DNA from: Aliiroseovarius sp. F20344
GTDB lineage: Bacteria; Pseudomonadota; Alphaproteobacteria; Rhodobacterales; Rhodobacteraceae
Length of the DNA: 64,000 bases
NCBI RefSeq assembly: GCF_023016155.1
Contig: NZ_JALKBG010000006.1
Span: 310,001-374,000, forward strand
Direction of reading: 5' to 3'
Made by a program: the position numbers and the translations under genes. Positions within the stretch are counted from its first letter, which is position 1. The number at the start of each line of letters is the position of its first letter. Below, piece after piece: positions 4,422 to 18,389 of the stretch. The notes beneath the pieces were generated by a model. It was not told the origin of the DNA. It ran no database searches and was given only the letters and a program-made list of their open reading frames with translations.

Positions 4422-5720
4422 ATGTACCGTGTGTGGAATTTCATCACCACCTATTCGATTCTTCTTATCAGCGGCGCTATGATTGCTCTTGTTTGGGCAA
4501 ACATAGATCCCCATTCCTACCATCACTTTGTGGAATACCCGATATGGTTCAATGGATGGATCGGTATCGACATCGGATATTGGGAAAAAGCTTACGGTGA
4601 AGCCTCGCATCATTTCGAATATGGTGATGTCGAGAAAGTTCTGACGTTTCACTATCTTATCAATGACATGCTGATGGCATTGTTCTTTGCAATCGCAGGG
4701 AAAGAGGTCTGGGAAGCCGTCATTTTGAAGAACGGCAGCTTACGCGGGAAAAAGGCGGCGACACCTCTGGTCGCCACCGCTGGCGGCATGCTGGGTCCGA
4801 TCGCAGTTTATCTTGGCATCGCTTATTTCCTTGGCTCCAGCACGTTTGATGCGGTTGCGCGTGGCTGGGCCATTCCGACTGCGACGGATATTGCCTTCAG
4901 CTATCTGGTTGGCCGTCTGGTCTTTGGCGCGGGGCACCCAGCGGTGCGGTTCTTGCTTCTGCTTGCCATTGCAGATGACGCAGCGGGCCTGATCATTTTG
5001 GCCATCTTCTACCCGTCAGGAGAGCTGGCCCCGGAATGGTTGCTTCTGTCTGTCGCGGCATCCGTTCTTGTGTTTGTCCTGTTCAATTGGTTGCCGCGTC
5101 GCAAAGACCGCGGAGACCAACTGCGCCGCTATTCGACCTTTGTGCGCAAAAAACTGGGGTGGATCCCTTATGCCGTCGCGGGTTGCCTAAGCTGGTACGG
5201 TTTCGCTCAGGCGGGCATTCACCCGGCGCTGGGTCTGCTTCCGGTTATCCCGGCCATCCCACACGCCGACCGCGCGTTTGGCTTCTTCTCTGAGGCTGAG
5301 AAATATCTGACTGATACCTTGAACCAGATGGAGCACTCACTGGCCATACCGGTCGACATCGTCCTGTTCTTCTTCGGCCTTCTGAATGCCGGGGTCGAAT
5401 TTGGGGCCATTGGCGAAGCAACTTGGCTGGTGCTTGCCGGTCTGATCATCGGCAAACCCGTTGGCGTGTTCATCATGGGATGGATTGCCGTCGGGCCAAT
5501 GCGACTCGGACTTCCGGCCGGAATGCGTTTGGTCGACCTGATCGTGATTGGATTTGTGGCGGCGATCGGGTTTACCGTTTCGCTGTTTGTGGCAGCTGTC
5601 GCCTTTGATCCTGGCCCGGTACAGGATGCAGCGAAAATGGGCGCGCTCTTTAGCTTTGGCGCTGTGTTCTTGTCCTTCATTGCAGGCAAGGTCCTTCGTG
5701 TCGAAAAGCAGCACGGCTGA
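4422..5720 (+). CDS. nhaA: Na+/H+ antiporter NhaA
   Basis: This is an integral inner-membrane antiporter of 432 residues, which exchanges Na+ (or Li+) for protons and helps control pH and salt. Key residues are visible: Asp156 in PTATDIAF and the Asp185-Asp186 pair in LAIADDAAGL, matching the essential aspartates of Escherichia coli NhaA. About a dozen hydrophobic segments follow. The protein is somewhat longer than E. coli NhaA, with an extra early stretch (residues 30-70) between the first helices. The ATG giving MYRVWNF was chosen, since upstream in-frame sequence has no family likeness and covers the structured leader. A strong terminator follows. Confidence 0.92.
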   Translation: MYRVWNFITTYSILLISGAMIALVWANIDPHSYHHFVEYPIWFNGWIGIDIGYWEKAYGEASHHFEYGDVEKVLTFHYLINDMLMALFFAIAGKEVWEAVILKNGSLRGKKAATPLVATAGGMLGPIAVYLGIAYFLGSSTFDAVARGWAIPTATDIAFSYLVGRLVFGAGHPAVRFLLLLAIADDAAGLIILAIFYPSGELAPEWLLLSVAASVLVFVLFNWLPRRKDRGDQLRRYSTFVRKKLGWIPYAVAGCLSWYGFAQAGIHPALGLLPVIPAIPHADRAFGFFSEAEKYLTDTLNQMEHSLAIPVDIVLFFFGLLNAGVEFGAIGEATWLVLAGLIIGKPVGVFIMGWIAVGPMRLGLPAGMRLVDLIVIGFVAAIGFTVSLFVAAVAFDPGPVQDAAKMGALFSFGAVFLSFIAGKVLRVEKQHG

Positions 5721-5928: not shown

Positions 5929-6588
5929 ATGCTCGAGTTCAGGAATGTCAGTAAGTCCTTTTGGACCGGAAAGCAGAGGAAGGTCATTCTTGACCAGGCC
6001 TCCTTTCGGGTTGAGCTCGGCAATTCCCTTGGCATTCTGGCGCCAAACGGCACCGGTAAGACGACGCTGATCAACATGATGGCCGGGCTGGAAAAGCCGG
6101 ATGAGGGCGAGATCGTGCGCGGATGCCGAATTTCCTTCCCATTGGGTTTTATGGGCGGGGTGATTGGAAAACTCTCAGCACGTGAAAACGCCCGCCACAT
6201 TGCCCGATTGTACGGGCTTGACCCGGATTACCTCGAGGCCTTCACCAGATGGCTGTGCAATCTGGAAGAATACTATGATTTCCCAATGGCAACCTACAGC
6301 GCCGGAATGCGGGCACGGTTTACATTCTCGCTTCTGTTGGCGATGGATTTTGATATCTATCTGATTGATGAAGGTATGCCCCAAACGACTGACGCAGAAT
6401 TTAACCGCCGTGCGGGAACGGTTCTACAAGATCGCTTGAAGGATGCCACGGTTGTTGTGGTATCACATCAGGCACAAACACTGGAAAAGCTTTGCACGTC
6501 AGCTGCAGTTCTAACAAACGGCCAGTTCTACCAGTTTGATACTTTAGAAGAAGCGAAACAGCTCTATGATTACCAGACCCAAGGCTAA
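5929..6588 (+). CDS. kpsT: Capsular polysaccharide ABC exporter ATPase (KpsT-like)
   Basis: This is a 219-residue ABC ATPase of the polysaccharide-export (ABC-2) type. The Walker A region is ILAPNGTGKTT (36-46), the signature is degenerate (YSAGMR, 123-128) as in KpsT proteins, and Walker B is IYLIDEG (143-149). KpsT energises export of capsule or similar polysaccharide across the inner membrane with the permease KpsM. The gene overlaps the next one by 23 bp, so translation is probably coupled. No KpsM gene lies in the window, although it is usually adjacent; it must be elsewhere. Confidence 0.85.
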   Translation: MLEFRNVSKSFWTGKQRKVILDQASFRVELGNSLGILAPNGTGKTTLINMMAGLEKPDEGEIVRGCRISFPLGFMGGVIGKLSARENARHIARLYGLDPDYLEAFTRWLCNLEEYYDFPMATYSAGMRARFTFSLLLAMDFDIYLIDEGMPQTTDAEFNRRAGTVLQDRLKDATVVVVSHQAQTLEKLCTSAAVLTNGQFYQFDTLEEAKQLYDYQTQG

Positions 6589-8293
6589 CCGTTATCGCAT
6601 CCGGCGTGGATCGACCGCAGCTGATGGGGCTGAGGGTGATGAAGCGCGCGTTGCTTCTAGAGCGTCTGAGAACACGGATGCTGACGAAGCCGAAGTGGAT
6701 CAATCCGAGGACGTGGTGGCGCAAATGGCTCAGGACAATGCAAAAAACTCTGAAGACCAGCCCAAGGAAGCGCTCAATCCGTTAGAGGAGATGTCGCAGC
6801 ACCCGCAAGAGGATGGCCTGCCGAATTTGGGTGCTGACAAGTCATCGCAGAAAACTCCCAATACATCGGCAGGTTCTGATGAGGCTTCCGAGATTGATAA
6901 GGTCCACAAAGAAGGGCTGACAGGAAGACAGCTTCGCATGGCACGCCGTGTGGCGCAGAAACACGGCATTCAGGCCGAAAGCGATCAGGAGGCTGTGTAT
7001 CGACTTCGGTTGGCTGGCATTGATCCTTTCAAACGGGCCAACATGCTGGAACTGGTTGAAGGCGAAGGGGATGGGAAAACTCCTAACCTTCCACAACCAG
7101 CAGTGCAGCCAGGACTACCTGGTCCGGGTGTGATTGACGCGGCTGAGCGGGCTCGCTCGGTCATGGATATCCAGCGCGATATCACACGCCGCCGCCGTCG
7201 CAACATGCGTATGCTTGTGTTGCGCCTGTTGTTCTTTGTGGTGCTGCCATCAATTGTGGCCGGATACTACTACTACAATATCGCGACTCCAATGTACGCC
7301 ACGAAGTCCGAGTTTGTGATCCAGCAAGCTGATGGAAATGGAAGCAGCGGGGCCGCGGGATTGTTTGCAGGCACCGGGCTTGCCTCAAGTCAGGACAGTA
7401 TCGGGGTGCAGGGCTATCTGACCTCACGCGAAGCGATGCTAAGGCTCGACCGCGACGTTGGGTTCAAAGCTCACTTCAGCGATGGAGATATCGATGTTGT
7501 GCAACGGCTCGATTCTGAAGCCAGCAACGAGACCGCATATAAGACCTACAAAAAACGGGTTAAGATCGGTTTTGACCCGACCGAAGGCATCATCAAGATG
7601 GAAGTGATTGCGGCCACACCAGAAGTGAGCGAGCAATACTCAAAATCACTGATTGCCTACGCGGAGGAGCGTGTCGACAACCTGACACAGCGTAAGCGCG
7701 AAGATCAGATGAAGGGCGCGCAGGAAAGCTATGAGAAAGCCGAACGCGAAATGCTCGATGCGCAGGATCAGGTGCTGGCATTGCAAGAAACGATGGGGGT
7801 TTTTGATGCGACTTCAGATGCATCATCACTCATGTCGCAGATCAATAACTACGAGCTCCAATTGCAGGACAAGCGTTTGCGGTTGGAACAACTGCTGGAC
7901 AATACGAGCCCGAATAAAGCCCGTGTGGATGGGGTGAAAGGCGATATTGCGCGATTGGAAACGTTGATTGCTGAGTTGCGTGGGAAGCTGACGGATACGG
8001 GCGGCGAAAACGGATCTTTGGCCTCGATCAGTGGGCAGTTACGGATTGCTCAGACCAATTTGGAAACCCGCACGTTGCTGATGCAGCAGGCCCTGCAGCA
8101 ACTTGAGGTGGCCCGGATCGAAGCCAACAAGCAAACCCGCTATTTGTCTACAAACGTCAGCCCCGTTGCCCCTGATCAACCAACCTATCCGCGGGCATTT
8201 GAAAACACGATCTTGGCTTTCCTGATTTTCTCGGGGATCTACCTGATGCTATCGTTGACCGCATCGATCCTACGCGAACAAATCTCGTCCTGA
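6566..8293 (+). CDS. Capsule export inner-membrane protein (KpsE-like)
   Basis: This 575-residue protein consists of a long, acidic, low-complexity cytosolic N-terminus (about 1-200, ending in the basic TRRRRRN), a first membrane helix (about 216-238), a periplasmic domain with coiled-coil sequence (about 340-520) and a C-terminal membrane helix (about 550-568). Two terminal helices around a coiled coil is the KpsE/polysaccharide co-polymerase layout, linking the inner-membrane exporter to the outer-membrane channel. E. coli KpsE is about 380 residues, so the roughly 200-residue N-terminal extension is notable. The start overlaps the ATPase gene. kdsA follows after 1 bp. Confidence 0.8.
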   Translation: MITRPKANRYRIRRGSTAADGAEGDEARVASRASENTDADEAEVDQSEDVVAQMAQDNAKNSEDQPKEALNPLEEMSQHPQEDGLPNLGADKSSQKTPNTSAGSDEASEIDKVHKEGLTGRQLRMARRVAQKHGIQAESDQEAVYRLRLAGIDPFKRANMLELVEGEGDGKTPNLPQPAVQPGLPGPGVIDAAERARSVMDIQRDITRRRRRNMRMLVLRLLFFVVLPSIVAGYYYYNIATPMYATKSEFVIQQADGNGSSGAAGLFAGTGLASSQDSIGVQGYLTSREAMLRLDRDVGFKAHFSDGDIDVVQRLDSEASNETAYKTYKKRVKIGFDPTEGIIKMEVIAATPEVSEQYSKSLIAYAEERVDNLTQRKREDQMKGAQESYEKAEREMLDAQDQVLALQETMGVFDATSDASSLMSQINNYELQLQDKRLRLEQLLDNTSPNKARVDGVKGDIARLETLIAELRGKLTDTGGENGSLASISGQLRIAQTNLETRTLLMQQALQQLEVARIEANKQTRYLSTNVSPVAPDQPTYPRAFENTILAFLIFSGIYLMLSLTASILREQISS

Positions 8294-8294
8294 T

Positions 8295-9137
8295 ATGAGA
8301 GAGATCACAATAGGGAAGGTCCGGTTTGGCAACCATTTGCCATTGGCCGTGATTTCCGGGCCGTGCCAGTTGGAGACCCGCGATCACGCGCTGTTCCTGG
8401 CTGAAAAGCTGAAGGCGGCTTGTGATGCGGCTGGGCTGGGTTTGGTGTTCAAGGCATCGTTTGACAAAGCCAATCGCACATCACATCGCGGCCAGCGTGG
8501 GCCGGGCATAGATGCCGGGCTGGACATACTTGCTGCTGTCAAAGCCGAAACCGGCGTGCCCATTCTGACTGACGTTCACTTGCCAGATCAGTGTGGGACC
8601 GTGGCCGAAGTTGCGGATGTGCTTCAGATTCCGGCGTTTCTGTGTCGGCAAACTGATTTATTGATCGCGGCTGCAAGAACCGGAAAGCCTGTGAATGTCA
8701 AAAAGGGACAGTTCATGGCGCCGTGGGATATGGCGCATGTCACCGAGAAGCTGGTCGAAGCAGGCAACTCTCAAATCATGCTGACGGAACGTGGAACAAG
8801 TTTTGGCTATAACAGTTTGGTCACCGACATGCGCGGGCTGCTACAAATGGCGGGTTTGGATTTCCCGGTGATCATGGATGCAACTCATGCTGTTCAGATG
8901 CCGGGGGGGCAGGGGGCTTCGTCCGGAGGGCAGCGTGAGTTCGCGCCTGTTCTTGCACGTGCGGCCGTAGCAGTTGGCGTGGCGGGGGTGTTCATCGAAA
9001 CGCATCAAGATCCCGATAGTGCTCCGTCAGACGGCCCAAACATGATTCCCATTGATCAGATGCCCGCTCTGTTGGATGAGCTCGCTGCATTTGACGCCTT
9101 GGCTAAGTCGAGACCGATGTCTGAACCTAGGTCGTGA
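8295..9137 (+). CDS. kdsA: 3-deoxy-8-phosphooctulonate synthase
   Basis: The 280-residue enzyme condenses arabinose 5-phosphate with phosphoenolpyruvate to make Kdo 8-phosphate, the precursor of Kdo for lipid A core and for the Kdo linker of some capsules. Marks are SGPCQLE (21-27), KASFDKANRTSHRG, TDVHLPDQC and KKGQFMAPWDM. Cys24 in GPC is the position that holds the metal-binding Cys of metal-dependent KdsA enzymes (Asn in E. coli), so this is probably the metal-dependent class; that is inference. It starts 1 bp after the KpsE-like gene, which ties it to polysaccharide export. Confidence 0.93.
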   Translation: MREITIGKVRFGNHLPLAVISGPCQLETRDHALFLAEKLKAACDAAGLGLVFKASFDKANRTSHRGQRGPGIDAGLDILAAVKAETGVPILTDVHLPDQCGTVAEVADVLQIPAFLCRQTDLLIAAARTGKPVNVKKGQFMAPWDMAHVTEKLVEAGNSQIMLTERGTSFGYNSLVTDMRGLLQMAGLDFPVIMDATHAVQMPGGQGASSGGQREFAPVLARAAVAVGVAGVFIETHQDPDSAPSDGPNMIPIDQMPALLDELAAFDALAKSRPMSEPRS

Positions 9138-9364: not shown

Positions 9365-9439
9365 TGGGATGTAGCCAAGTGGTAAGGCAACTGTTTTTGG
9401 TACAGTGTACCGTAGGTTCGAATCCTACCATCCCAGCCA
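9365..9439 (+). tRNA. tRNA-Gln (anticodon TTG)
   Basis: A full cloverleaf is visible. The acceptor stem is TGGGATG/CATCCCA, the anticodon stem ACTGT/ACAGT encloses loop TTTTGGT with anticodon TTG, the T-arm is GTAGG TTCGAAT CCTAC, and the gene ends in an encoded CCA. Upstream (9138-9364) and downstream (9440-9620) I see no gene. tRNA genes are frequent integration sites, and a recombinase-like gene follows 180 bp downstream. Confidence 0.97.
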
Positions 9440-11088: not shown

Positions 11089-12432
11089 TCACGCGTCGCT
11101 CGCCGACCACGTTATGCGCGCGCTCAATCCTCCGATTGGTGAACGCTGGAGCGACAAAACACAGCCGTGGGCAAGTGCCATGTCGTTAACGATCGTCAAT
11201 CCTAAACCTGACCCCGGTTGCTGTGAATCTAATCTGCCGCCACGCTCCAATGCTGCAGATATGGCGGTGTCTGGAATACCGGGCCCGTCGTCATCCACTG
11301 ATAGAAACGCCTGCGGGCCATCCTGACCAGCACGAACCCATATGTGGCTCTCTGACCACTTCATCGCATTGTCAAGCAGGTTACCAAGAAGCTCGGTCAA
11401 ATCGAACTCGTCAAACGGAATGTACAAGCCCTCAGGCACATCGACATCCCATCGAATGTGTTCGGTCCCGGGCTGGCGGCTCAACGCACGATGCAGGCGG
11501 GTGGCAATTGGGTGGATAGAGCACTGCCGCAGCACTTGTTGGCTATCACGGCTCAACGCAAGTTCGCGCTCGACGGTGTGTTGAATGCTTGTGATTTCCG
11601 CCAACAAATCGTCGGCAAGAGCGTCGTTTCCGCTTCGTCGCACTTTACGCTCAACTCCGAGCATAATTGTCAGTGGTGTTTTTAAACCATGTGCCAGATT
11701 TCCGGCACGCGAGCGGGCGCGGTCAAGTGCATCGGCATTTGCATCCAGAAGCTGGTTTACCTCTTCTACAAGCGGCAACACTTCAGTCGGATAATTAGAC
11801 GACAGTCGCGTTCTAGGCGACTTGCTGACACGCCCAATTTCGGATCGGATTTTTTGCAGCGGGTTCAGTCCAAGCTTAACTTGAATCCAACTTGCGGCGA
11901 ACAGAAACAAACCCAATATGGCCAGCCAGATAACAGAGTTTGCTAAAAATCCGGACACAGAAACATCCAGATCCTCGCGATCTATGGCAATCGCCAAAAA
12001 GATCTCGCGCTGCATGTCTCCTTCTCCGATCGTTATCACCCAGCTCGCGACCGCAACCGTGCCTCCAGTCCCTGTGATGACGTCTTCGAATGAAATCACA
12101 CCCGCCATATGGGGGCGCTCTAATGCCAAAGGCGCTGCCCAGAACGAGGGCGACAGAACAGGGTCTTTGTCATCGACTTGAATTTGCCAATAGTAGCCAG
12201 ACAACGCCTGATTGAACCGAGGGTCAGAAATTGGGGTGACTTCAACTTCTCCGACTGCACTCACATCTATGTTGCCGGTCAGCAGCAACAGGTATGTCTC
12301 TAATTCATTGCGCGTTCGGTCTTCAAAATAAAGACGAAACAAGAAGTTGAATACGATCACTGTAGCCACCAGAGCTAGGGTAGTGGTAATGGCGGCTGCC
12401 AGTAACAGGCGCAGGCTTAAAGACATTCTCAT
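11089..12432 (-). CDS. Sensor histidine kinase of the five-gene Ser-Pro-Ala operon
   Basis: This 447-residue membrane kinase has a first helix at about 10-33, a periplasmic sensor domain (about 34-160), a second helix (about 162-182), a HAMP-like linker and an H-box NLAHGLKTPLTIM with His248. An N-box (LLGNLLDNAMKWS), G1 (VDDDGPGIP) and G2 (GSGLGLTIV) complete the ATP-binding domain. The overall type is PhoQ/QseC-like. Its start overlaps the response regulator stop by 4 bp, so the two form a cognate pair. Because the pair sits at the end of an operon with PepSY and kinase-PqqD genes, the sensor may read the state of those exported proteins; that is inference. Confidence 0.9.
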   Translation of the reverse strand: MRMSLSLRLLLAAAITTTLALVATVIVFNFLFRLYFEDRTRNELETYLLLLTGNIDVSAVGEVEVTPISDPRFNQALSGYYWQIQVDDKDPVLSPSFWAAPLALERPHMAGVISFEDVITGTGGTVAVASWVITIGEGDMQREIFLAIAIDREDLDVSVSGFLANSVIWLAILGLFLFAASWIQVKLGLNPLQKIRSEIGRVSKSPRTRLSSNYPTEVLPLVEEVNQLLDANADALDRARSRAGNLAHGLKTPLTIMLGVERKVRRSGNDALADDLLAEITSIQHTVERELALSRDSQQVLRQCSIHPIATRLHRALSRQPGTEHIRWDVDVPEGLYIPFDEFDLTELLGNLLDNAMKWSESHIWVRAGQDGPQAFLSVDDDGPGIPDTAISAALERGGRLDSQQPGSGLGLTIVNDMALAHGCVLSLQRSPIGGLSARITWSASDA

Positions 12433-13094
12433 GATGTTTCTTCGGCAATCAAGTACCCAAACCCGCGTCGTGTTTCGATCACATCCCCCCCGATTTTTCG
12501 GCGCAAACGACCCACAAGAACTTCGACGGCATTGCTGTCCGGTTCTTGATCCCGAAAATAGATGTTCTCGGCGAGCTCCTCTTGAGCAATCACCTTACCA
12601 CGATTGTGCATTAGGTAGTTGAGAAGCCGATATTCCAAGGGTGTAACCTTCAACGGGCGCCCATCAAGAGACACGCGCATCTGCCTGAGATCAATGCGTA
12701 GTGGTCCGGCTTCAAGGGTCGTCGATTTTTGACCGCTTGAACGCCTAAGTAATGCGCGAAGCCGCGCGACGAGTTCTTCCATCTGGAAGGGTTTGCCCAG
12801 ATAGTCGTCTGCACCTGCGTCGATGCCCTCGACCCGCTCGTTCCAGTTTGCCCGTGCCGTCAGCAGGATAACGGGTATATCCAGCCCTTCATCACGCCAG
12901 TCGCGTAGAACCGAAAGTCCATCTCTTTTGGGCAGGCCGATATCAAGGATTGCCGCCGCATAGCTTTCGGTGCTGCCAAGAAACCAGCCTTCTTCACCGT
13001 CTCGGGCAATCTCAGGTACCAGGCCCTCGCCTTTCAAAACTTCGGCGATCAAATCCGCGATCTTTTGTTCATCTTCGACGATCAGAATACGCAT
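12429..13094 (-). CDS. OmpR/PhoB family response regulator
   Basis: The 221 residues comprise a receiver domain (acidic pocket VEDE, phospho-acceptor Asp51 in AILDIGLPK, Lys in LGKPF) and a C-terminal winged-helix DNA-binding domain (about 125-218, with VTPLEYRLLNYLM and VEVLVGRLRRKIG). It lies directly after the PepSY gene (stop and start adjacent) and overlaps the histidine kinase gene by 4 bp, so it is transcribed with both. It presumably controls this operon or envelope genes; no target site is identified. Confidence 0.92.
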   Translation of the reverse strand: MRILIVEDEQKIADLIAEVLKGEGLVPEIARDGEEGWFLGSTESYAAAILDIGLPKRDGLSVLRDWRDEGLDIPVILLTARANWNERVEGIDAGADDYLGKPFQMEELVARLRALLRRSSGQKSTTLEAGPLRIDLRQMRVSLDGRPLKVTPLEYRLLNYLMHNRGKVIAQEELAENIYFRDQEPDSNAVEVLVGRLRRKIGGDVIETRRGFGYLIAEETS

Positions 13095-13664
13095 TTAGCA
13101 CTTCCGCATGCTAGTGACCCGACCAGACTTGGCATCAACGGTAACCGAAATCACAGCCCCAGACGCTCCAACAATCAAGACATCAAAGGACGGGCCCGAT
13201 CCGCCTTCTGAATACCCGACGTGCAAAAGTTTGCCAGGGTGTTTGGCGCGAACGTTGCTCAGAACTTCGTTCAACGGACGCGCTTCGCCACGCGAGATTG
13301 CGCGTTGCGCGCGCTTGTAATCTCGCCGTGATATCTGGGCATCTCCTGAAATCGCAGAGCGATTGCATTTTCCGGGTCCGCTGGGACCGCTTGGCTCCGA
13401 TCCTCCGCGATTTGTTGGCCCACTTGGCGCAGACGGGGTGCTGGACTTGCTGACCGGGCTAGGGCCTGATGCGGGGCTCGGGCGGGACGCCGGTGATGCC
13501 GGGCTTGGGGGTGTTGCTCGGCTTGCCGGGGACGCTGGTGAGGAACTCGACGCGGCTCTGGCCATGCTCAGTCCCGTCAAACTTGGGGCCATATAGACCC
13601 CGGCGGCGCCTAGACCCAAACGTGTCAGTGCCTCGCGGCGCGTTATGCGTTTGCTACGTGTCAT
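13095..13664 (-). CDS. Exported Ser-Pro-Ala-rich protein with C-terminal PepSY domain
   Basis: The protein is 189 residues when started at the ATG giving MTRSKRITRREALTRLG; this start overlaps the kinase stop as ATGA, and the longer frame adds unrelated sequence. Residues 1-37 look like a twin-arginine signal (TRREALT, then GLGAAGVYMAPSLTGLSMARA cut after ARA). Residues 38-98 are low-complexity Ser/Pro/Ala/Gly with SPAS units. Residues about 112-189 form a PepSY-like domain (RAQRAISRGEARPLNEVL to VTVDAKSGRVTSMRKC). Cys100 and the terminal Cys189 may form a disulfide. PepSY domains are often found next to two-component genes, as here. The signal and repeat resemble those of the first gene of the operon. 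Confidence 0.7.
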   Translation of the reverse strand: MTRSKRITRREALTRLGLGAAGVYMAPSLTGLSMARAASSSSPASPASRATPPSPASPASRPSPASGPSPVSKSSTPSAPSGPTNRGGSEPSGPSGPGKCNRSAISGDAQISRRDYKRAQRAISRGEARPLNEVLSNVRAKHPGKLLHVGYSEGGSGPSFDVLIVGASGAVISVTVDAKSGRVTSMRKC

Positions 13665-14902
13665 TGCGCGGCAACCTTGAATGCCGACGGTACGATCAGA
13701 CGCGCTTCGGCCAGACCGCGCATCAGTTGCTCGCAATCCCCGGCGATCTGGTCAGGGCCCACATCGGGAAAGGCTGACGCCAGTATGGAAACAACTTCTT
13801 TCAGATCGGTGGGCTCTTCCAACAGCCGCCATATCGCAGCGGATATGGGGTTTAGCCGGAAGATGGCCATGCCCGTGCCATCTGCCAGGAAACTGTCATC
13901 GCCTGCTTGCGTCTCGGTCACACCCTGCGCCTGTACATATTGCTGGGCCGATGCGAATTCAGGAGCAGATAGATCCAGCAACTCCAACGGCGCTTTGCGA
14001 TCATCCTGCGCGAGCTCCGAAAGCCGGGTCGCCGGAAGCGCTTTCAAGTCGGGATGAGTCAGCAGGTACTCCGCTGCGGCCTCTCCGTTGTGATAAGTCA
14101 GTCGGAAGATCGGAAGGTGTCGGGTAATCACGTCGATCGACTTTAGGATCGCACCGGAATGTCGGGTGCGGGCAAAGTTTTGCGTGATGATACTTTCCAA
14201 CGCATCCGCGCGCGCCATGGGTGCGAGTGTCGGTTCGACCAGATCATCCTGTCGATCAAGCACCACCATCGCGCCCAGCGGCAGCGTTTCACCGTGTGGC
14301 GCAATCGGAGTGTCCAGTAGGTACTTGTACTGCCGGTTTGACGGGCCACGGTCCTGATCAGCCCAAGTGTGAAAAGCGTCGCTGAAATCTTGCGGCAGAG
14401 GCAAACGAATACGCGGCGAGGCACCATTTGCGATGCCAAGGGAGGTCTGATTGACCGCGTCGATGCTGACCGGCAGGAAGTCGTCCGTGTAAAGTTGTCG
14501 ACCCAGGCGCGCCAGAGCAATGGAAAGCGTGCTTTTGCCCGCACGCCGCGCATTTGGAAAGACCACCAGACGTCCGTCAAAGTTCACCGCCGCCGCGTGG
14601 AGGCAAAGCAATTCAGGGTCCGAGCGCAAACGCTCCCAAGCCATTTCCGCCACCAGATCACAGACGGTGTTAACCGAATCCCAAATCCGCGGGGCGTCCG
14701 GCGCATCTTCGGTCACCAAGGACCAGCGCCCAGCTTCGGCTTGGCGGATTGTCAAAAAAGATGGATCATCGGGTGGCGTCGAGGAAACTTGATGCGGCCA
14801 AGCGGACAAAACGTCGGATACCATCGACTCCAAGGGCGCCGCGTCTTCAAGTGCGGCGGTTTTATTCAACCCTTCAAATTTCAAGTATCGCGTATTTGCC
14901 AC
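13661..14902 (-). CDS. HprK-like kinase fused to a PqqD-type domain
   Basis: This 413-residue protein starts at GTG 14902, with AGGA 8 bases upstream. An HPr kinase/PEP-carboxykinase-like nucleotide fold is indicated by LLCLHAAAVNFDGRLVVFP (98-116), a P-loop ARRAGKST (118-125) and LYTDDFLPV (137-145) with the Asp140-Asp141 pair. The C-terminal part (about 338-403), with LNPISAAIWRLLEEPTDL and QLMRGLAEARLI, reads as a PqqD-like domain, the recognition element that binds leader peptides in RiPP pathways. HprK-related kinases act in some lasso-peptide and other RiPP clusters. Here both flanking genes encode Ser-rich exported proteins, which are the obvious candidate substrates. No radical SAM, cyclase or asparagine-synthetase partner is present. 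Confidence 0.75.
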   Translation of the reverse strand: MANTRYLKFEGLNKTAALEDAAPLESMVSDVLSAWPHQVSSTPPDDPSFLTIRQAEAGRWSLVTEDAPDAPRIWDSVNTVCDLVAEMAWERLRSDPELLCLHAAAVNFDGRLVVFPNARRAGKSTLSIALARLGRQLYTDDFLPVSIDAVNQTSLGIANGASPRIRLPLPQDFSDAFHTWADQDRGPSNRQYKYLLDTPIAPHGETLPLGAMVVLDRQDDLVEPTLAPMARADALESIITQNFARTRHSGAILKSIDVITRHLPIFRLTYHNGEAAAEYLLTHPDLKALPATRLSELAQDDRKAPLELLDLSAPEFASAQQYVQAQGVTETQAGDDSFLADGTGMAIFRLNPISAAIWRLLEEPTDLKEVVSILASAFPDVGPDQIAGDCEQLMRGLAEARLIVPSAFKVAAQ

Positions 14903-14934
14903 GTTTTAATCCTGAGCGAGTGCGGCTCATGTTA

Positions 14935-15012
14935 CCTCGTTTTCATCGTGCCTGAAAACAGTCCGGCCTGCCAGCAATTCAGATGCAGGCAGACCGATGA
15001 TTTGGAACGAGG
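14935..15012 (-). promoter_or_regulatory. Long hairpin between the first two genes of the Ser-Pro-Ala operon
   Basis: Three nested arm pairs are present: CCTCGTT (14935-14941) with AACGAGG (15006-15012), TCATCG (14943-14948) with CGATGA (14995-15000), and GCCTGC (14966-14971) with GCAGGC (14985-14990). It begins 10 bases after the stop of the small repeat protein in the mRNA and has no T-run, so it may stabilise or partly attenuate the transcript. Confidence 0.55.
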
Positions 15013-15022
15013 TATTTCCGGC

Positions 15023-15415
15023 TTAGCTTCTGCTACAAACCGACACACCATCACTGCGTTTCACAACTCTGCCGCCGGAGTCTCTGCATTCCTTTGACGT
15101 CATTGACTTTCGGGGGCTGCTAGGTCCGCTGGACGAAGACGGCGACGACGCTGAGCTTGGCGAAGACGAGCTTGACGAACCCGACGAACCGCTGGGGCTC
15201 GAAGCTGGGCTGGCAGGCGATGCCGGGCTGGCGGGCGAAGCCGGGCTGGATTTCGAGGCAGGGCTGGATTTTGAAGCTGGGCTGGAACCCGAGCTCGAGG
15301 CATGTGCAGCGGAAAGCGTGGTCAATGTGGGTGCAACATATGCTGCAACTGCCAGACCGCTGATTGCGGTGATTGCTTTGCGGCGGGAAAGCACTTTGTC
15401 GTTTTGTTCGGTCAT
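15023..15415 (-). CDS. Small Tat-signal protein with SPAS repeats, possible modified substrate
   Basis: The gene encodes 130 residues, with AAGGA 8 bases before the ATG. Residues 1-39 form a twin-arginine-like signal (LSRRKAIT, hydrophobic AISGLAVAAYVAPTL, cleavage after AHA). Residues 40-101 are almost wholly Ser, Pro, Ala, Gly and Lys, with tandem SPAS units (about 45-72) and Ser runs. The tail (102-130) has Cys110 and Cys127, probably a disulfide. It is the first gene of the operon before the HprK-PqqD gene. Its small size, leader-like N-terminus and Ser-rich core make it the prime candidate substrate for that kinase. A role as a cell-wall spacer or surface protein is an alternative. No known family was recognised. 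Confidence 0.68.
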   Translation of the reverse strand: MTEQNDKVLSRRKAITAISGLAVAAYVAPTLTTLSAAHASSSGSSPASKSSPASKSSPASPASPASPASPASSPSGSSGSSSSSSPSSASSPSSSSGPSSPRKSMTSKECRDSGGRVVKRSDGVSVCSRS

Positions 15416-17549: not shown

Positions 17550-18182
17550 TTAGATATCGATGCGCTCGGCTATGCTCAGAGCATCTTCCAGTTCGACACC
17601 AAGATAACGCACCGTGCTGTCAACTTTGGTGTGACCAAGGAGCAGTTGCACCGCGCGAAGGTTGCCAGTCTTGCGATAGATCTCGGCAGCCTTTGTTCGG
17701 CGAAGCGAGTGTGTACCATATCCACTCGGCTCCAAACCAATCGCCTTCACCCAGTCGCGGACAAGTCGACCGTACTGACGCGTTGAGATGTGTGGTCGGT
17801 CGTGAAACCGGCTTGGGAACATGAACCGGCAAGCAAGCATCTCCGGATTTCTGACCCAGGTCAGAACGGTTTCTCGGGTGTTTTCCAACAGTTCGAATTG
17901 AACAGGCCGTTTGGTTTTGCTCTGGATCACGGAAACACGTTCCCGGACGCGGTCGTCTTTGACAAGATCAGTCACGGTTAACCTAACCAGATCGCAGCCT
18001 CGAAGTTTGCTGTCGATGGCGACGTTGAACAAAGTCAGGTCGCGCAAACTGCCCGAAAGTTCGAGCCGTGCACGGATCGCCCACACTTGTTTTGGCAGCA
18101 ACGGACGTTTCTGCCCGATAATCCGCCCCTTGTTCCAAGCCTTGCGTTTTGGGGTGACTGCGGGAAGTTGGACCTTTGGCAT
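17550..18182 (-). CDS. Short tyrosine recombinase (integrase), copy 1
   Basis: The 210-residue protein starts at MPKVQLPAVT; longer frames add unrelated sequence. The catalytic set is complete: Arg61 (SKLRGCDL), Lys89 (IQSKTKRP), His158-x-x-Arg161 (GTHSLRRTK), His184 (LLGHTKVDST) and nucleophile Tyr193 (VRYLGV). It consists of little more than the catalytic domain and lacks the usual N-terminal core-binding (SAM-like) domain of phage integrases. A close paralogue of identical length lies at 25259-25891 in the same direction. It may mark an island edge or be one of several dispersed copies. Expected role: site-specific DNA strand exchange. Confidence 0.85.
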   Translation of the reverse strand: MPKVQLPAVTPKRKAWNKGRIIGQKRPLLPKQVWAIRARLELSGSLRDLTLFNVAIDSKLRGCDLVRLTVTDLVKDDRVRERVSVIQSKTKRPVQFELLENTRETVLTWVRNPEMLACRFMFPSRFHDRPHISTRQYGRLVRDWVKAIGLEPSGYGTHSLRRTKAAEIYRKTGNLRAVQLLLGHTKVDSTVRYLGVELEDALSIAERIDI

Positions 18183-18389
18183 GATTTGCCCTCCGATCCT
18201 CCCTCCAAACCCAGTCACCAGCACCATGCGGGCAATGAGATTGTATCGTCCATGGCAATGGCAGCTGTCAGTGGCCAACCGACTGCATCGGCGCTGCGTG
18301 CGCACTCGGCGGCTCTGAGCCCAAGTTGACCGATGTTGCAGGATGCCTGAAGGTCCGGTTTACAGATAGACTGCTCTGAAAAGATTGAA

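Follow-up and report, generated by a model that had tools for sequence, protein, structure and literature searches.

What does an HprK-like kinase modify when it is fused to a PqqD-type RiPP recognition element (RRE; RiPP, ribosomally synthesized and post-translationally modified peptide) and encoded between two Ser-rich proteins with signal-peptide-like leaders? RREs are known chiefly as adaptors for small peptide natural products. The question is raised by an operon of Aliiroseovarius sp. F20344, located at 11089-15415 on the minus strand of a stretch of 64,000 nt (NZ_JALKBG010000006.1, positions 310,001-374,000), hereafter called the window. Its five genes encode, in this order, SPAS1 (a protein with Ser/Pro/Ala repeats), the kinase-RRE fusion, a second leader protein with a PepSY domain (the PepSY protein), a response regulator and a histidine kinase (Table 1). 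As best explanation, to which we assign a probability of roughly two in three, we propose an RRE-guided phosphorylation of Ser residues in both leader proteins prior to their export.

According to this proposal, the C-terminal RRE of the kinase would bind the YxxPxL motif that SPAS1 and the PepSY protein both carry in their signal-peptide-like leaders. The HprK-type domain, held at the leader, would use ATP to phosphorylate Ser, probably at more than one position, in the disordered Ser-rich segment that follows. The protein would then leave the cytoplasm, probably via twin-arginine translocation (Tat) in view of its twin Arg and AxA-type site, which would allow modification before export, and an ordinary signal peptidase would remove the leader. 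SPAS1 would be a plain Ser-rich exported product; the PepSY protein would place the modified segment ahead of its PepSY domain and may modulate the neighbouring histidine kinase/response regulator pair.

The kinase-RRE fusion and the leader motif

The C-terminal part of the kinase, whose PqqD fold a sequence-only reading of the same DNA had named beforehand as one point on which it should be judged, is a PqqD-type domain. PF05402 matches with E 2.5e-12 and 47.4 bits (cut-off 23.4), and the predicted structure shows the β3-α3 topology, with strands followed by three helices in RRE order, mostly at a predicted local distance difference test (pLDDT) score of 60-88. The closest solved relative of a 13-sequence RRE profile is the lasso peptide RRE TbiB1 (E 3.1e-6). 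The RRE is not among the rows of a second structural search; as this search used mainly residues 1-334, the result is not evidence against an RRE.

Both leaders hold the sequence YxxPxL (YVAPTL and YMAPSL) within the signal-peptide-like segment, and this is the motif bound by the discrete RREs of lasso peptides and of the linear polyphosphorylated peptides (LPPs), as described in the part of PMC13381572 on which we draw. According to the same part, D70 of LppB forms a hydrogen bond with the leader Tyr, and N33 holds the bend at the Pro. By a hand alignment, made from the printed profile match and the residues named in that source (PMC13381572), these positions correspond to D389 and N351 of the fusion. 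In the window and 80 relatives, D389 is Asp in 78 of 81 sequences and N351 is Asn in 65 and Asp in 12, and the position matching LppB F74 is mostly Leu (65/81). Binding of the leaders by the RRE is thus predicted with considerable confidence. The sequence-only reading had proposed that the PqqD part recruits both exported proteins by their N-terminal region; the motif in both leaders, the conserved pocket and the near-perfect co-occurrence described below lend this prediction strong support.

The whole fusion protein is predicted with a mean pLDDT of 83, and its kinase part adopts the HprK/PEPCK fold (PEPCK, phosphoenolpyruvate carboxykinase). H102, G122, K123, D140 and D141 are invariant in all 81 sequences, and position 124 is Ser or Thr in every one of them. 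The spacing of His, P-loop and Asp-Asp agrees with that reported for BsfK in the part of PMC10368454 used here. Both motifs of the sequence-only reading, a P-loop and Asp-Asp, are present, with the qualification that Asn replaces the first Walker-A Gly of the P-loop in the window. A PEPCK activity was considered, since in a structural search the top rows are PEPCK, with HprK rows from rank 35, and PEPCK fills the second structural listing; it was rejected because the His/P-loop/Asp-Asp spacing is that of HprK-like peptide kinases. Membership of the HprK-related kinase A family (TIGR04352) was likewise rejected, its partial match to the kinase core scoring 35.9 bits, far under the cut-off of 200.

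Apart from the motif, the leaders carry a twin Arg and an AxA ending. The pattern used to recognise leaders in the relatives required [RK]R 8-24 residues before the Tyr, together with the Tyr, the Pro and a hydrophobic residue, and the conservation of Tyr and Pro is thus given by construction. Positions outside this requirement are conserved as well: the twin Arg sits exactly at -15/-14 in 78 of 78 leaders, Ala is found at +11 in 77 and at +13 in 75, Gly at -7 in 73 and Leu at -11 in 69. We consider Tat export of the leader proteins probable, because the twin Arg is fixed in 78 loci and an ATP-dependent modification must come before export.

An interpretation of the leader as a generic Tat signal was rejected. 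In the own genome, a search with the Tat signal family PF10518 gives 28 matches (E up to 5). Only two of these carry YxxP close to the signal, in one case after the apparent cleavage site, and one has YxxPx[LIVMF]. With the leader profile, nothing below E 1 was found in this genome beyond the two leaders of the operon. In an Oxalobacter locus (L094; L numbers denote compared loci from relatives, G numbers compared genomes) the protein upstream of the kinase (5249-5602) has YASPALMQL and a Ser-rich tail and lacks the twin Arg; motif and Tat signal are separable in this substrate.

Co-occurrence of the fusion and the leader

Relatives were collected by kinase patterns alone, without use of the leader, and the best 80 of 121 confirmed candidates were compared. 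They range over Rhodobacteraceae, Halomonas, Dongia, Mesorhizobium, Devosia and Guyparkeria. A leader open reading frame (ORF) lies directly upstream in 78 of the 80, its end falling within -600 to +120 nt of the kinase match. The leader pattern appears in 10 of 4,721 control ORFs, a set made up largely of chance ORFs and not of genuine exported proteins; one of the 10 is in fact another leader gene. The two misses are L094 and L068; in the latter only 80 nt of sequence precede the match, which begins at kinase residue 77, and a leader gene is found downstream.

A 33-sequence leader profile was run on a family draw of 394 genomes, the same draw that was searched for the kinase. At E ≤ 1e-6, the leader is present in all 29 genomes with a kinase match extending into the RRE and in 1 of 365 others; in this lone exception (G240) the leader gene lies about 280 nt from the end of the contig. 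In a phylum draw of 398 genomes, where partial kinase or PqqD matches at separate places, of which there are many, were not counted as fusions, the leader (E ≤ 1e-5) is present in 8 of 8 kinase-RRE genomes versus 1 of 390 others. Of the 21 genomes of the genus, 11 contain the kinase, a close histidine kinase and exactly two leaders each; in the other 10, kinase, close histidine kinase and leaders were all not found at the thresholds used. The five-gene order recurs in 10 further genomes of the genus, in line with the sequence-only reading, which had staked itself on conservation of the neighbourhood in relatives.

Unfused arrangements were also observed. L033 (410-3204) holds a cluster of a 72-aa leader protein with twin Arg and YxxP, a discrete PqqD-like protein and two HprK-like kinases, possibly the ancestral state. 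G726 and G655 have separate HprK-like and PqqD-like matches, which adjoin in G726.

Co-occurrence could also result from travel as a mobile cassette alone, with the leader and the Ser-rich segment having another role and modification. The flanks do vary among the loci of the genus: L023, L024, L026 and L028 have common neighbours, L021 has two genes in common with L027 and single ORFs with L022 and the window, L029 and L030 have no common neighbours at the threshold used, and L025 is too short to tell. A phage-integrase-family gene at 17550-18305 of the window, similar pieces of which adjoin the cassette in L021 and L022, hints at mobility. However, this account is very unlikely in our view. 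Kinase-bearing genomes also have leaders on contigs other than that of the kinase (L197, with SRPSYSRPS, and L198, subtilase-like by eye), no leader was found in the five genomes of the family draw with a kinase match ending short of the RRE (the ORF of one, G411, was inspected and is without an RRE), and the pocket residues are conserved, all of which speaks against mobility as the whole cause.

Ser-rich segments, substrate types and the two-component pair

The segments behind the leaders contain repeats that are unlike each other, such as SPAS, SEPSEP, SGGSGG, SRPSYSRPS and SRRSFSRR. Ser is the sole residue absent from none of the 78 cores, with a minimum of 8.2% and a median of 23%, and it is the commonest residue in 37 of them. 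The composition of post-leader segments is paired within loci: over all 30 pairs none of 20,000 permutations reached the observed value, and within one architecture 31 of 20,000 (18 PepSY-type pairs) and 5 of 20,000 (11 subtilase pairs) did so, in a test that keeps architecture and controls relatedness only in part. The sequence-only reading had the kinase modify the Ser-rich part. Such a modification has indirect support from the catalytic residues, kept in 81 of 81 sequences, and from Ser, which is all that these dissimilar repeats have in common.

The partial control of relatedness has to be counted against RRE-guided phosphorylation, together with a number of further points. Regarding the segments, Arg is the commonest core residue in 30 of 78, and among the first 40 post-leader residues of 108 leader proteins one has no Ser and another 3% Ser. 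Regarding the leader, neither of the two is among the 28 PF10518 matches of the own genome, which leaves the 'Tat-type' of the sequence-only reading with the twin Arg and the AxA ending; L094 demonstrates that the twin Arg is not universal; and G497 encodes a Tat-type protein of 893 aa with YFAPLL (E 9.7e-6), so that the motif is possible in an ordinary Tat signal. Regarding the RRE, the window sequence alone matches TbiB1 weakly (E 0.045). Regarding co-occurrence, the Fisher value for the family (4e-43) ignores shared ancestry, and the leader limits of 1e-6 and 1e-5 were picked after the lists had been seen; with E ≤ 1e-3, the leader profile also matches in a further 7 genomes of the family draw and 6 of the phylum draw. 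None of these 7 is in the family kinase list; six of their matches (1e-6 to 1e-3) end at profile position 18-26, and the seventh (G063, positions 2-31) is without YxxP. G628 and G800 combine a weaker leader match at 1e-3 with an HprK-like match lacking the RRE part, and in G452 the single leader match, with a Pro/Gly-rich core, lies about 40 kb from a kinase match split in two pieces. The kinase profile searches scored the best 4 candidates at most per genome. Finally, the first P-loop Gly is kept in just 9 of 81 sequences, and a change of its counterpart in BsfK, G163, lowered activity according to the part of PMC10368454 used here.

The loss of this Gly would suit a different function, in which the RRE serves mainly as a chaperone that binds leaders, retaining substrates or checking them ahead of export, and the kinase domain works as a nucleotide switch and not as a protein kinase. 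The position of the motif within the signal-peptide-like segment would suit it as well, since a bound leader could hardly enter the translocon. Yet none of the 81 sequences departs from the His/Lys/Asp-Asp set, and Ser persists in cores that are otherwise unlike, which a chaperone would not need. We therefore regard a chaperone as unlikely and retain RRE-guided phosphorylation.

The leader is not restricted to small proteins. In 11 loci (L082, L083, L088, L096-L099, L104, L108, L109, L111) a subtilase with the same leader is encoded upstream. These subtilase-type proteins also have a Ser-containing segment, are located upstream of the small substrate, and match Peptidase_S8 in five of the five scanned; they are possibly proteases that process the small substrate. 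The small substrates of Halomonas loci (L105, L107, L112 and others) end in RW, often SRW or PSRW.

The two-component pair lies outside the core of the system: a second leader protein downstream of the kinase, of PepSY type by position and alignment, is found at 18 of 80 loci, and a single leader ORF at 48 of 80, including L068, which is cut upstream. Among five PepSY-type proteins scanned with Pfam (L044, L064, L065, L067, L068), three match PepSY below the cut-off and two match nothing. For the window protein, described by the sequence-only reading as a second SPAS protein with a PepSY domain, the leader, the Ser/Pro/Ala linker and a PepSY-like model were found, and the Pfam match (E 4e-4, 21.1 bits) is slightly under the cut-off of 24. 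Its model has low confidence to about residue 106, followed by a confident α-α-β4 domain at about residues 111-188. With this domain Foldseek returned no row at E 0.001 or better; the best two are the C. difficile lipoprotein CD1622 (E 0.037) and YpmB (E 0.069), each with a probability of 1.00.

For seven more distant relatives of the histidine kinase, the genes of the response regulator and histidine kinase are preceded by that of a small protein whose start, judged by eye, looks like a signal. Six of them are in other Alphaproteobacteria, and the seventh is an additional copy in G020, a member of the genus. In a set of 14 sequences, five of the seven small proteins match the PepSY protein of the window at E 0.003 or better; L190 gives E 6.5 and L195 no match. 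It looks as if a PepSY-response regulator-histidine kinase operon of an existing kind has had its ordinary signal replaced by the RRE-motif leader and the Ser-rich linker. In Sinorhizobium, FeuN is a small protein that modulates the neighbouring OmpR-type regulator/histidine kinase pair FeuP-FeuQ. The leaderless operons with PepSY-like small proteins in other Alphaproteobacteria resemble this layout, and in the window, too, the PepSY protein adjoins such a pair, a likeness in gene layout. In contrast to FeuN, the PepSY protein has an RRE-motif leader and a Ser-rich linker and stands directly behind the kinase-RRE gene (for FeuP/FeuQ, see the part of PMC5539429 considered here). That the modified PepSY protein controls the two-component pair can be put forward only tentatively; that the pair senses the outcome, as the sequence-only reading had it, is plausible.

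Relation to known systems and surroundings of the operon

To our knowledge, the DUF2063/HvfC systems contain no kinase, and a weak match to NF050145 (13.1 versus 142 bits) gives no membership of them. They resemble the present system in being an RRE pathway whose substrates have an export signal (Sec-type there), and differ in that no specific RRE motif is described in the part of PMC12710340 consulted; in the main text of this RRE-mining paper the word 'kinase' does not occur.

The claim of the sequence-only reading that no system with such a set has been described is too strong. The combination of an HprK-like kinase with a discrete RRE and a YxxP/WxxP leader is known from LPPs and from lasso peptides of the paeninodin type, and LPPs further agree in their PqqD-type RRE, the Asp that forms a hydrogen bond with the leader Tyr and the Ser acceptor (PMC13381572, as far as covered here). 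According to the same part of this source, LPPs occur in Bacilli and have a discrete RRE, whereas here, in Alpha- and Gammaproteobacteria, kinase and RRE are parts of one protein, the motif sits in a signal-peptide-like leader and the substrates include PepSY proteins and subtilases. The LPP cluster also has an SpI-like peptidase, an MsbA-like transporter and an NTP transferase (PMC13381572), none of which is in the five-gene unit of the 11 genus genomes or was found among the 8 flanking ORFs scanned, 5 of which belong to other families and 3 of which have no match; annotation covered the genus unit and the window flanks, and the neighbours of wider relatives were compared by clustering. PMC13381572 contains none of the terms proteobacteri, Pseudomonadota, twin-arginine and Gram-negative. 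Phosphorylated lasso peptides of the paeninodin/Bsf type share the HprK-like kinase with collinear H/K/S/D/D and the YxxPxL leader, and their RRE speeds phosphorylation; the substrate there is a short macrocyclic peptide, here Ser-rich proteins of about 70-190 aa and longer (PMC10368454, part considered). A lasso peptide cluster was rejected, as cyclase and B2 protease were not recognised in the five-gene unit or the family-matching flanking genes.

These likenesses also bear on a RiPP-type natural-product pathway, in which the Ser-rich peptide would be phosphorylated, cut and released as a bioactive compound, as proposed for LPPs. Kinase/RRE logic and motif are common to both, the genes are small and precursor-like, and the distribution is patchy, the cassette being present in 11 of the 21 genomes of the genus, mostly between flanks that differ. 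Against such a pathway, the five genes conserved in the genus include no peptidase, cyclase or exporter, the flanking ORFs scanned supply none, and the leader also heads PepSY proteins and subtilases; we consider it quite unlikely. Since the HprK-like/RRE/motif logic of LPPs and paeninodin/Bsf is shared but the LPP features (discrete RRE, peptidase, exporter) are not, the system is most likely a fused proteobacterial variant of LPP/paeninodin logic, attached to a PepSY two-component operon.

Table 1. Features of the operon in window coordinates
Feature	Position	Strand	Remarks
SPAS1 (130 aa)	15023..15415	-	leader aa 1-39, Ser/Pro/Ala repeats (43 Ser in 91 aa), two-Cys C-terminal tail
SPAS1 leader MTEQNDKVLSRRKAITAISGLAVAAYVAPTLTTLSAAHA	15299..15415	-	leader profile E 6.6e-14
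YVAPTL, the YxxPxL RRE-recognition motif of SPAS1	15323..15340	-	same motif in 78/80 relatives
Hairpin in SPAS1-kinase gap	14964..14996	-	whole gap z -3.93
HprK-like kinase with C-terminal PqqD-type RRE, 413 aa counted from first GTG	13661..14902	-	
Catalytic His102	14597..14599	-	kept 81/81
P-loop PNARRAGKST	14528..14557	-	G122, K123 kept 81/81
Asp140-Asp141	14480..14485	-	kept 81/81
RRE (PqqD) domain	13688..13939	-	N351, D389 correspond to LppB N33, D70
Second leader protein (189 aa): leader, Ser/Pro/Ala linker, C-terminal PepSY domain	13095..13664	-	
YMAPSL, the YxxPxL motif of the PepSY protein leader	13578..13595	-	leader profile E 4.3e-12
Ser/Pro/Ala-rich linker of PepSY protein	13353..13553	-	low model confidence, probably disordered
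PepSY domain	13098..13331	-	Pfam match, model, Foldseek
OmpR-type response regulator	12429..13094	-	Pfam scan
Sensor histidine kinase	11089..12432	-	Pfam scan

The five minus-strand genes mostly overlap or abut, as the sequence-only reading had noted: kinase and PepSY gene as well as response regulator and histidine kinase overlap by 4 nt, PepSY and response regulator genes abut, and SPAS1 and kinase are separated by 120 nt. The start of the PepSY protein was set at 13664 because its ATG overlaps the kinase stop as ATGA. The hairpin in the SPAS1-kinase gap may set expression of the substrate above that of the kinase; of 79 such gaps, 62 are long enough to be folded, and among these the mean z is -1.92 and 31 fall below -2, which is suggestive only.

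Further away, the window holds at 6566-9137 a DAHP-synthase-family protein resembling KdsA and a 575-aa protein without Pfam match, which resembles a capsule export protein. None of the 10 genus relatives compared was found to have these genes next to the cassette; LPP clusters are reported near capsule loci in the part of PMC13381572 used here. A tRNA-Gln at 9365-9439 is the only tRNA gene found in the window. Ten loci of the Rhodobacter/Tabrizicola group (L053-L056, L058, L061-L063, L069, L070) have, downstream of the kinase on the opposite strand, a gene for a protein of about 748 aa, presumably resembling PtsP.

Among open-access papers, judged by titles and abstract openings with subscription papers outside this scope, no description of an HprK-RRE fusion with exported Ser-rich substrates was found. 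Here the RRE is fused to a kinase and seemingly reads a motif in the export signal of ordinary-sized exported proteins of Alpha- and Gammaproteobacteria. In a wider reading, to which we would give slightly less than even odds, this would be a protein-tagging system, in which an RRE motif in the export signal would steer whole proteins (regulators, proteases, products of unlinked genes) to the HprK-RRE fusion, which would phosphorylate an adjoining Ser-rich tag many times over before the protein is exported; a PepSY two-component circuit would have come under this tag in Aliiroseovarius and relatives, with a phosphorylated exported protein controlling transcription. If true, bacteria would phosphorylate extracytoplasmic proteins from inside, which would make phosphoserine possible without ATP outside, and the leader would be a sequence tag that predicts further substrates in any genome bearing the kinase.

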